From Kyrpidia spormannii (GTDB lineage: Bacteria > Bacillota > Bacilli > Kyrpidiales > Kyrpidiaceae): a stretch of 64,000 bases of DNA. Position numbers and translations under genes: made by a program. The stretch is taken from positions 1,178,001 through 1,242,000 of the forward strand of contig NZ_CP024955.1 in the NCBI RefSeq assembly GCF_002804065.1, written 5' to 3'. How positions within the stretch are numbered: position 1 is the first letter of the stretch; each line of letters starts with the position of its first letter. The notes under the pieces are model-generated. The model was not told the origin of the DNA and did not search any database. It saw nothing but the letters and a program-made list of their open reading frames with translations. Positions 39,922 through 52,277 of this stretch are shown here, piece after piece.

Positions 39922-40513
39922 GTACGCCCGGCATGGGCGGTGTCTCTATGGTGGAAGTCCCGAACGGGGCTTGGCGACACACCGTTAGCTAAGAGCAAGA
40001 GTGTCCATCGCGAGGTGGCATGCGAAGGAAGCTGGAGGCAAACCCTCGGCCCGATGAACAAGAACCTCATACGAGCCCTCACGGCGAGGAACACACCGAT
40101 CGCCATGGAGGAACGAATCCGACGGCTGAACACGTATCTGGGCGGCTGGATGGGGTACTTTGCCCTGGCGGAAACGCCGAGCACCTTCGAAGAAATCGAA
40201 GGATGGATACGGCGGAGGCTGCGGATGTGTCTCTGGAAACAGTGGAACCGGGTACGGACGCGATATCGTGAACTGCGCACTGGGATTGCCGGAGTGGGTG
40301 GTGCACCCATTCGCCAACGCCCGCAAAGGGCCATGGCAATGGCACACGGGCCGATAAACAGGGCCCTGGGCAACGCCTACCGGCAGGCCCAAGGCTTGAT
40401 GAGTTTAACCGAACGTTACCGAAGGCTCCGTCAAGCTTGGTGAACCTCCGGATGCGGACCCGCAAGTTCGGCGGTGTGAGAGGACGGGGGCTGGCCGCCC
40501 CCTCCTACTCGAT
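39922..40513 (+). mobile_element. Group II intron remnant (internal deletion)
   Basis: The 5' part (39922-40050) has the GTACGCCCGG start, the GTGTCCATCGCGAGGTG segment and GAAGGAAGCTGGAGGCAAAC of group II intron domain I. It is joined to the last part of the maturase gene, then domain V (GGATGCGGACCCGCAAGTTC region) and a domain VI stem GGGGGC/GCCCCC ending CTACTCGAT. Most of domains I-IV and of the reverse transcriptase are missing, so it cannot splice alone. Confidence 0.8.
40054..40443 (+). pseudogene. Group II intron reverse transcriptase/maturase, C-terminal piece
   Basis: Residues match the maturase (X) domain and the end of LtrA-type proteins: RIRRLNTYLGGWMGYFALAE, IRRRLRMCLWKQWNRVRTRY and RALGNAYRQAQGLMSLTERY, ending RRLRQAW. 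Between them, 40272-40350, the expected LPEWVVHPFANARKGPWQ is read in another frame, so two compensating frameshifts exist. The whole polymerase domain is gone. Confidence 0.85.
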
Positions 40514-48401: not shown

Positions 48402-49403
48402 TCACATAGGACTCGAAGATATCTTGTCTCGCTTGTCGTTCTGACTGTACAATTGTTCGACGTCGTCCCAGTGCTCGAGAAGGACATTGACCATGGCGGG
48501 GTCGAATTGCCGACCGCGCTTTTCACGTAAGTACTCCTGGACACTTGAGCTGCTCCAAGGGGTTTTATACGGGCGACGGGACAAAAGTGCGTCCGTCACA
48601 TCTGCGACAGCCACAATTCGCGCACTTTCAGGGATTTCATCGCCTCGAAGGCCATTGGGATAGCCGCCGTCCACATGTTCGTGGTGGCACTCGGCAATGT
48701 CCTTGGCCATGACCAAAGCTTCGTTGTATCCGTAGATTTTGGCCATGTTGTCATTGAGGCGCATCAGGAGTTCAGCCCCCATGGTGGTGTGTGTCTCGAC
48801 CAGGCGCCGTTCCTGGTGGGTCAAGGGACCCGGCCTGAACAGAAGTTCCCTGGGAATGTACAGTTTTCCCACGTCGTGCAGGACCGAGGCTGTGCCCACC
48901 CATGTCGCCTGAATCTCCGGCCATCCCAGCCATCGGGTCAAGAATGTAGAAATGTGTCTCACCCGGAACAGGTGGGGTGCCACCGAAGGATCCCCGGCTT
49001 CGGCAATTTCGGCGATCAGGAAAAACAACTGCTGGTAGGAATCTGAAATGTCCTGTGAGGTGATGTTCTGAACGTCCCGACAAACGCCGAGATAATAGAG
49101 TCCGTCAGGACGATGCACGGGTGTGATGGTCAAAGAAGAGTTCCAGAGACGGCCGTCCGGACGGCGGTTGGTGAGGATGCCTTTCCAAACTTGGGCGTTT
49201 CCAAGGCACTCTTTCATCGACCGGTATACCGAAGGGTGCGTCAATCCGGATTTGATGTACCCCGCGTCTTTGCCGATGATGTCCTCGCGCCGATAGCCGC
49301 TTGCTTCTTCGTAAGCGTTGTTCACAGTGAGAATTCGGTGATCCGCGTCGGTGACGATCACTGGATCCCCGAGAAGCAGATAAGGATCATACCAAGTTGC
49401 CAT
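48402..49403 (-). CDS. PAS-HD-GYP domain protein with one-residue deletion in the GYP motif
   Basis: 333 residues from ATG 49403. A PAS domain (about 12-125: VTDADHRILTVNNAYEEASG, YYLGVCRDV) is followed by an HD-GYP domain (about 140-320) with VLHDVGKLYIPRE and HTTMGAELL. HD-GYP proteins hydrolyse cyclic di-GMP. The signature HHExxDGxGYP is here HHEHVDGGYPNG: one residue between DG and GYP is missing compared with the paralogue at 51273 (HHEHVDGSGYPKG). Activity is therefore doubtful. The paralogue faces the other way 1.9 kb downstream. Confidence 0.9.
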   Translation of the reverse strand: MATWYDPYLLLGDPVIVTDADHRILTVNNAYEEASGYRREDIIGKDAGYIKSGLTHPSVYRSMKECLGNAQVWKGILTNRRPDGRLWNSSLTITPVHRPDGLYYLGVCRDVQNITSQDISDSYQQLFFLIAEIAEAGDPSVAPHLFRVRHISTFLTRWLGWPEIQATWVGTASVLHDVGKLYIPRELLFRPGPLTHQERRLVETHTTMGAELLMRLNDNMAKIYGYNEALVMAKDIAECHHEHVDGGYPNGLRGDEIPESARIVAVADVTDALLSRRPYKTPWSSSSVQEYLREKRGRQFDPAMVNVLLEHWDDVEQLYSQNDKRDKISSSPM

Positions 49404-50128
49404 TCGTTTTCCCCGCCTTGAGATGCTTGTTGCTTTCAAGATCATGCGCTGTCCCTGCCGGGCAACCGCAAAAAAACTTTTTCTTGCACACGCCGCTGTG
49501 GGTAAGATTCCTCCAAAAAGGGTGACAGCCCGTTCCACCGTTCCTGTGTCCGTCGGGCGGCGGCGCTGGTCCCTTCGGCGTGGTCGGCCGCCGTTGACGC
49601 CGTTTCGCGGATTTGCTTGGTGTCGTGAGCATTCGGGCGTCAAGCGCCCAATTCCGGACAGTTTTTCATTGCCTCCAATCATATAAGATGTAGAGAATTG
49701 GTCCATACATCCAACTTCACGCTTACTCTATAGTGAGAACGTCGGGCAATCAAGGGGCCACCCTGCGCATCGATGAACATTTATAGAAGGAATCATGAAG
49801 AAAGGTAATATGTCCGAGGACTCGCTTTCTTCTTTAGTCGAGCAAGTTTCTGTTGATAAGTGGAGTCGGGAGTTGGATCATCAATTGATGACAAAGGCGG
49901 TCCGAAAAAACAACAAGCAACCCCGCCAGGGAACCCGACGGGGCAGTTTGCCATGCCATGCTCTTCGAACAGGTATTCCAGGCACGGATAGGGGTCCAGA
50001 ACGTTATAACCCAGATAATGGGCATGTCGGACTCAACATGCCGATGGGATTCTTGCTGAAGGTTCGGGGAAAAAAGGGACATCGAAAAAGGCTCGTCTGG
50101 ATACGAGGTTGACAGAACGGGCTCAGGG
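49404..50128. other. Long intergenic stretch
   Basis: No supported gene. Frames on either strand are GC-rich shadows. It holds the terminator at 49904-49943. Confidence 0.5.
49904..49943 (-). terminator. Terminator for the methyltransferase at 50129
   Basis: On the minus strand CCCCG (complement of 49939-49943) pairs with CGGGG (complement of 49921-49925) with inner GGG/CCC pairing, followed by TTGCTTGTTGTTTTTT. Confidence 0.5.
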
Positions 50129-50758: not shown

Positions 50759-50939
50759 ATGCCTCCCCACCTCCGTTGCTCACGGGCTCGATTTTTAAGC
50801 CTAGGATACCACATGCGTCGAGACCGGTCATGGGCAATATTCCGGCGGTTGATCGGACGGCGGCAAGAGAGCTGTTGAAGGAAATATTATCCGTGGCGAC
50901 GAAACTATAAGAAACAAGAATTGTCGAGGAGGGACTTTC

Positions 50940-51221
50940 ATGGGGACCACGGCTCGAGTTACTCTGCGAGGAACCTCCGACCATTTTCCTGAGCCGCACG
51001 ATATGGAAATATATGTAAATAGTGCGGGGGGGGGGGGGGGGGGGGGTAGTGGCCCATTAATTACAATATATGGATCTTATTATATTTACCCCCACTCTGA
51101 CCATTCTCCGCCATACCCTGCGCCAATTCCTCCGTTCCCCAGACAGGTTTCCGCCTCAGCGGTCTCTCTGTCGAATACGGCCTCGACTTTGCAGAACGTG
51201 ACAGATCGATTTAAAGTGTAG
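50940..51221 (+). CDS. Small unidentified protein with poly-Gly tract
   Basis: 93 residues, ATG with GAGGAGGG seven bases upstream, so translation is likely. Not recognised. N-terminal RVTLRGTSDHFPEPHDMEIY and YVNSA, then seven Gly encoded by a pure G run, then SGPLITIYGSYYIYPHS and a Pro-rich part. The frame depends on the length of the G run. It lies just upstream of the PAS-HD-GYP gene at 51273. Confidence 0.6.
   Translation: MGTTARVTLRGTSDHFPEPHDMEIYVNSAGGGGGGGSGPLITIYGSYYIYPHSDHSPPYPAPIPPFPRQVSASAVSLSNTASTLQNVTDRFKV
51026..51046 (+). repeat. Homopolymeric tract of 21 G
   Basis: The run lies inside the small gene at 50940. Tracts of this length are unstable during replication and are a hallmark of phase-variable genes, but they are also prone to sequencing error. 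Confidence 0.85.
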
Positions 51222-51272: not shown

Positions 51273-52277
51273 ATGGGAAACTGGTATGACCCGTATATGC
51301 TTCTCGATGATCCGGTGATTGTAGCCGATGCCCGTCACAGGGTGTTGGCCGTGAACCCGGCGTATGAACGGGCCAGTGGCTTCAGGTGCAAAGATTTGAC
51401 CGGTAAGGAAGCGGTCTATGCGAAACCCAAAGGGTTGATCCCCGGCACCTCCGCATCTGTCTGCGAACACGTGGAACGCGGACAGGGATGGAAAGGGATC
51501 GTAACCTGCGAGCGGGCGGACGGGGAGTTATGGAATTTCTCCCTCACGGTGACACCGGTGCGCGCTTTCGGTCAGGTTTACTACCTTGCGGTGTGCCGCG
51601 ATCTAGAAGAACTCAGGTATCAGGCGATCTCCGAGTCCTACGAACAGCTATTTTTGCTGATTGCACAGTTGGCTGAAACCGGTGACCCGTCGGTGCAGCC
51701 GCACTTGGATCGGGTAGGCCGACTCTCCCGGTCCCTCGCGGAATGGTTGGGATGGCCGGAGGCCCGGGCGAGGTGGTTGGGGATGGCATCGGTCCTGCAC
51801 GACGTGGGAAAGCTGTACATTCCCCGGGAGATCTTGTTCAAACCCGGTCCGTTGACCCCGGCGGAACGGCGGTTGGTGGAAACCCACACGACCCAGGGCG
51901 CCGAACTCCTGACTCGTTTCAGTGAGAATATGGCGAAAATCTACGGCTACAACGAGGCGCTATTAATGGCTCGGGAGATTGCCCAGTGTCACCATGAACA
52001 CGTGGATGGCAGCGGATATCCGAAAGGTCTCCGTGGCGAAGAAATCCCCGAGAGCGCCCGGATCGTCGCCCTGGCGGACGTGACCGATGCCCTTTTTTCG
52101 CACCGTCCCTATAAAATTCCCTGGGCTGCCTCTCAGGTACAGAGGTATTTGCGCACCAAAAGTGGTCGCCAATTCGATCCTAAGATGGTTCGCGTTCTTC
52201 TCGACCACTGGAAGGAAGTGGAGGAACTGTATCGCCTTCAGCCCGCCATCCCCACAGGCATTATCGGTAACGGCTGA
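51273..52277 (+). CDS. PAS-HD-GYP domain protein (c-di-GMP phosphodiesterase-like)
   Basis: 334 residues, ATG with CTGGAGGT upstream. Same architecture as the gene at 48402: PAS domain (VADARHRVLAVNPAYERASG) and HD-GYP domain with VLHDVGKLYIPREILF, HTTQGAELL, the complete HHEHVDGSGYPKG signature and LADVTDALFS. It probably hydrolyses c-di-GMP in response to a PAS-bound signal. The two proteins are alike along their whole length, so they arose by duplication, and they are encoded in opposite directions. Confidence 0.93.
   Translation: MGNWYDPYMLLDDPVIVADARHRVLAVNPAYERASGFRCKDLTGKEAVYAKPKGLIPGTSASVCEHVERGQGWKGIVTCERADGELWNFSLTVTPVRAFGQVYYLAVCRDLEELRYQAISESYEQLFLLIAQLAETGDPSVQPHLDRVGRLSRSLAEWLGWPEARARWLGMASVLHDVGKLYIPREILFKPGPLTPAERRLVETHTTQGAELLTRFSENMAKIYGYNEALLMAREIAQCHHEHVDGSGYPKGLRGEEIPESARIVALADVTDALFSHRPYKIPWAASQVQRYLRTKSGRQFDPKMVRVLLDHWKEVEELYRLQPAIPTGIIGNG

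Follow-up and report, generated by a model that had tools for sequence, protein, structure and literature searches.

A long poly-G tract in the leader of an HD-GYP gene of Kyrpidia spormannii EA-1: a candidate contingency tract with counterparts at MCP and EAL-Spo0E genes

The leader, the tract and the HD-GYP gene

The window analyzed in this work is a 64,000-nt stretch of the Kyrpidia spormannii EA-1 genome (contig NZ_CP024955.1, positions 1,178,001 to 1,242,000), and coordinates are those of the window unless another stretch is named. The features of the locus, all on the forward strand, are as follows, with the basis of the assignment in parentheses.

50881..50893, + strand: upstream leader block GAAATATTATCCG, unchanged in K. 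tusciae (K. tusciae alignment)
50926..50933, + strand: Shine-Dalgarno-like GAGGAGGG (sequence)
50940..51221, + strand: 93-codon leader frame running through the tract; chimera of leader and MCP stump rather than a conserved protein
51026..51046, + strand: 21-G tract, whose K. tusciae counterpart has 18 G (sequence, K. tusciae alignment)
51052..51074, + strand: 23-nt block GCCCATTAATTACAATATATGGA 3' of the tract, identical in K. tusciae (alignment)
51144..51218, + strand: remnant of a deleted sCache_2 MCP gene, comprising its last 25 codons (76% amino acid identity to the MCP in L104)
51273..52277, + strand: PAS-HD-GYP protein of 334 aa, predicted c-di-GMP phosphodiesterase type, with its own ribosome site GGAGGT

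The ribosome site and 93-residue frame of the original prediction proved exact to the base: GAGGAGGG at 50926-50933 is followed, after a 6-nt spacing, by the ATG at 50940-50942, and the frame stops at the TAG at 51219-51221. The tract is likewise exactly 21 consecutive G. It is read as the last base of a GCG codon (Ala), six GGG and one GGT, and therefore encodes seven Gly. With 22 G, a TAG directly 3' of the run is predicted to end the product at 36 aa, and with 20 G a stop after VVAH, four codons on, is predicted to end it at 39 aa. The leader frame is cut at both of these lengths, and the HD-GYP gene has a ribosome site of its own.

The c-di-GMP-type regulator gene expected next to the frame is indeed present as the PAS-HD-GYP gene from 51273, which matches the Pfam families HD_5 (6e-31) and PAS_9 (2e-8) and contains the HD-GYP motifs (HD, HHE..DG.GYP) as HDVGK and HHEHVDGSGYPKGL; by its domains, it is predicted to be of the c-di-GMP phosphodiesterase type. 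Two PAS-HD-GYP paralogues, 66-72% identical to this gene, occur in EA-1 (window 48405-49706 and L099 1239-2171), one of which follows a globin-type MCP gene; neither was seen in K. tusciae. A scan of genome contigs with the HD-GYP protein returned distant relatives only, and the HD-GYP locus of the sister genus (L090) has neither a comparable G-tract arrangement nor an intact MCP gene upstream. An Rfam scan of the window gave no riboswitch, including the c-di-GMP-I class, at the leader. Elsewhere in the window, the scan returned only a match to a group II intron (RF02001, 46.8 bits), at 40004-40142.

Long G-runs in two Kyrpidia genomes and a decayed MCP gene

The number of G-runs expected by chance was estimated from the nearest-neighbour frequencies of the window, which give about 2e-5 runs of at least 21 G per genome. 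The EA-1 genome (single contig, 3,352,175 bases) contains exactly three G-runs of at least 10, of lengths 21, 22 and 25, all of them adjoining signalling genes: the HD-GYP gene of the window, an MCP gene at 2.94 Mb (L040; domains 4HB_MCP, HAMP and MCPsignal) and, at 2.85 Mb, an EAL gene (L039) with the run within its first codons. In genome coordinates, the runs lie at 1229026 (window), 2939320 (MCP) and 2849983 (EAL). The window tract is not a product of chance. Homologues with other tract lengths, which the original prediction had proposed to look for, were found in K. tusciae (G001; 3,384,766 bp, PMC3236038), with 18 G (HD-GYP), 14 G (MCP) and 29 G (EAL) at the same places; this genome was sequenced by 454/Sanger, so its exact tract counts are soft. 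The window locus thus displays two marks of a contingency locus, a run far beyond chance and a length that differs from K. tusciae (soft count).

It is scarcely credible that the tract arose as a sequencing or assembly artefact. Poly-G is hard to sequence and several draft contigs end in such tracts, but the EA-1 assembly was made from PacBio reads corrected with MiSeq (PMC5773743), and sequencing of K. tusciae with another chemistry also gave a long tract at this site, between conserved flanks, which leaves only the exact count liable to err. The 23 bases 3' of the tract are identical between EA-1 and K. tusciae, whereas the fourfold sites in the HD-GYP gene agree at 57%, and identity over 23 bases would be expected at about 3e-6 per starting position if the sequence were neutral. 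A 16-G run was also seen in K. tusciae L042 (2194-2209) right before a TGA, the apparent end of the pyruvate dehydrogenase E1 alpha gene, and just 5' of E1 beta; EA-1 has no run of at least 10 there.

The leaders of EA-1 and K. tusciae are about 70% identical, and the changes within the frame are distributed over the three codon positions as 8/8/9 before the tract and 9/8/10 behind it, an evenness that gives no sign of selection on a protein. A codon-position test found a coding signal in neither the HD-GYP leader nor the poly-G MCP leader, and a Pfam search with the 93 aa returned no match. In a genome-wide search, the last 25 residues of the frame matched the C-terminus of an sCache_2 MCP encoded elsewhere in EA-1, with 76% identity (E 5e-4) and the same end point. 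The stretch from the leader to the HD-GYP gene is longer in K. tusciae and holds three pieces of the same MCP, collinear and on the same strand, namely the start (LSSFRIKLAVILL), the end of the sensor domain and a signalling part, not all in one frame. MCP remnants thus lie behind the leader in both species: an MCP gene once stood between leader and HD-GYP gene and has since decayed. In EA-1, a deletion fused the leader to the MCP stump and so produced the 93-codon frame. Elsewhere in EA-1, a paralogue of the HD-GYP gene is preceded by an MCP gene in the same orientation, a layout that fits a former MCP-HD-GYP operon.

These comparisons do not support the designation of the frame as a small gene. 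A real gene for a 93-aa protein, with production switched by the tract, would account for the good ribosome site, for a frame that is open in the same phase in both species, and for the stops that close both other frames directly behind the tract. This explanation is nonetheless very unlikely given the absence of codon-position bias, the lack of a family match and the C-termini, which differ between the two species because the EA-1 end is the MCP stump; judged from these sequences, the 93-codon frame is not a conserved protein.

A different reading, possible if somewhat doubtful, takes the tract as a relic that served the lost MCP gene, is now without effect on the HD-GYP gene and has its length kept by mutation balance. 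Consistent with this are the decay of the MCP gene in both species, the HD-GYP gene's own ribosome site, the leader frame without a coding signal and the predicted folds of the leader RNA, whose stability is no better than that of shuffled sequences. Despite the decay of the MCP gene, however, the tract still measures 18 and 21 G and the 23 flanking bases are unchanged.

Poly-G tracts at MCP and EAL-Spo0E genes

The leader tracts of the poly-G MCP gene comprise 22 G in EA-1 (L040 2321-2342) and 14 G in K. tusciae (L041 2270-2283). In K. tusciae the frame through the tract ends overlapping the MCP start; the corresponding EA-1 frame breaks off at the tract. This arrangement would fit translational coupling, although the leader itself carries no codon signal.

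The EAL gene is preceded by a c-di-GMP-I riboswitch (Rfam RF01051) that scores 84-85 bits in EA-1 and K. tusciae. G002 and the sister genus G003 share the gene and its tract, as do many genera of f7, another family of the same class, suspected to be the Alicyclobacillaceae because Kyrpidia has been placed as the sister group of Alicyclobacillus (PMC3236038). The riboswitch lies upstream of nearly all f7 poly-G loci scanned and was not found in the stretches scanned from G002 and G003. The encoded proteins end in a Spo0E-like domain (PF09388). Members of the Spo0E-like family dephosphorylate Spo0A~P in Bacillus. EAL-Spo0E fusions behind a riboswitch and a poly-G tract were seen in L039 (1572-2597; EA-1, 2.85 Mb), L043, L136, L141 and other f7 loci.

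Each EAL locus was classified by frame from whichever start codon had the best ribosome site, a choice that was a matter of judgement in some loci. Of 15 classified loci, 6 are in frame (EA-1, G298, G157b, G235, G124 and G410) and 9 are out of frame (K. tusciae, G002, G003, G217, G063, G401, G091, G113 and G289), with exact tract counts uncertain in draft genomes, several contigs of which break inside the tract. Among the f7 loci that the protein search listed, the EAL frame is open 3' of the tract. An in-frame share of roughly one third is that of a freely slipping run, whereas an ordinary coding repeat would keep the frame at every locus. The same tract in many genera, together with the mixed EAL frames, makes phase variation at the EAL locus likely, and these loci probably outrank the window locus as a find.

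Long homopolymers can cause transcriptional slippage, in which RNA polymerase adds or drops G's and each cell holds a mixture of frames over unchanged DNA. Besides this known capacity, such slippage would explain why out-of-frame EAL genes remain intact. Lengths nevertheless differ in every pair of relatives, as slippage of the DNA predicts, and while the two processes can coexist, transcriptional slippage is considered an unlikely explanation of the tracts. It is less likely still that the tract is a spacer within a promoter or operator, with a length that tunes transcription and not translation. The AT-rich DNA conserved on both sides of the tract without a codon pattern would suit a spacer, but a scan of the window leader for promoter and terminator consensus sequences found no promoter-like site, and the EAL tracts lie behind the riboswitch and the start codon and are therefore inside the transcript.

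The flanks of the window and EAL tracts were compared with each other and with dinucleotide shuffles. The mean score was 15.4, against 12.9 for the shuffles, and none of 300 shuffles scored as high; the best single pair was reached by 7 of 300. The flanks of 19 unrelated G-runs, drawn from runs of 10-16 in K. tusciae and G002 and from several runs in f7 genomes, scored lower (6.8-11.6). Since the likeness is moderate and the flanks are AT-rich, kinship of the window leader with the EAL cassette is plausible but unproven.

Interpretation and comparison with known systems

Taken together, these observations make the 21-G run a probable contingency tract, hypermutable and located in the 5' leader of an operon that once comprised MCP and HD-GYP genes. 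Slipped-strand replication would add or remove G's, giving rise to cells with differing tract lengths, and the Kyrpidia tracts at the EAL, MCP and HD-GYP loci would form one set. Its clearest and perhaps ancestral member would be the riboswitch-controlled EAL-Spo0E phosphodiesterase, in which a tract in the first codons would gate the protein by frame. Behind the window leader, the MCP gene has decayed in both species. The candidate phase-variable switch of the original prediction thus stands as to the reality of the tract, the length difference from K. tusciae, the further tracts at EAL and MCP genes and the EAL loci mixed in and out of frame, and falls short of any evident effect on HD-GYP translation. 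The HD-GYP gene is equipped with a separate ribosome site, and in K. tusciae about 400 nt lie between the end of the leader frame and this gene, which renders an effect of the tract uncertain; whether the window tract length still modulates HD-GYP expression is accordingly a matter of some doubt, and we hold it possible rather than probable.

The HD-GYP ribosome site, the moderate flank likeness and the soft K. tusciae counts were weighed against the contingency reading, as was the record of a cathode-adapted EA-1 population, whose variants above 50% include no tract change (PMC7823960; the main text is without a table of lower-frequency variants). An intergenic GG insertion at 1515328 from the same study was considered and set aside, as its site is outside any poly-G tract.

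The best-known cases of homopolymer phase variation concern surface genes in host-associated bacteria. The poly-G and poly-C contingency loci of Campylobacter, Neisseria, Bordetella and Treponema resemble those described here in that a long run of one base sits at the 5' end of a gene, its length varies among relatives, and frames open and close. They differ in that theirs mostly concern surface structures in a host-associated setting, whereas in Kyrpidia, a thermophilic and free-living spore former, the tracts adjoin c-di-GMP and chemotaxis genes, and switching within a strain would be expected. In Clostridioides difficile, the phosphodiesterases pdcB and pdcC are phase-variable through inversion (PMC9286219). 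The random on/off state of a c-di-GMP phosphodiesterase is the effect expected here as well, but in C. difficile a recombinase inverts a promoter segment, whereas the Kyrpidia homopolymer is expected to slip. Among genes under a c-di-GMP-I riboswitch (RF01051), the EAL gene of the tract set belongs to a familiar type and the window locus, without a riboswitch, does not. Literature searches, outside which most subscription journals lay, found no report of a homopolymer switch on c-di-GMP genes, none to the point on phase variation in Alicyclobacillus and none of this EAL-Spo0E arrangement. Set in this context, the putative combination of a riboswitch and a poly-G frame switch on an EAL-Spo0E fusion would be the most novel part.

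Kyrpidia spormannii is a heat- and acid-loving, free-living spore former studied for cathodic biofilms. Phase variation in such an organism would apparently be aimed at the second-messenger network and chemotaxis, and if the tracts switch, biofilm differences among EA-1 cultures may have a simple, countable genetic cause. A broader proposal is offered tentatively, as a single joint claim: across Kyrpidia and the related family, a poly-G frame switch, mostly on top of a c-di-GMP riboswitch, would randomly toggle an EAL-Spo0E fusion, with the Kyrpidia tracts also placed before MCP and HD-GYP genes and the window tract still working. Were this true, single cells would vary in how much c-di-GMP they contain and in how ready they are to sporulate.

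Two further arrangements were observed at EAL loci. In G289, two near-identical poly-G leaders of the EAL type, each with 21 G, lie about 4.5 kb apart (L174 and L182), and the EAL frame behind them looks broken. At paralogous EAL loci of f7, the G-run is short or interrupted (L137, about 1435-1445, and L156, about 1478-1485; GGGTGGGCGG and GGGGGG), and these are possibly locked forms of the switch.
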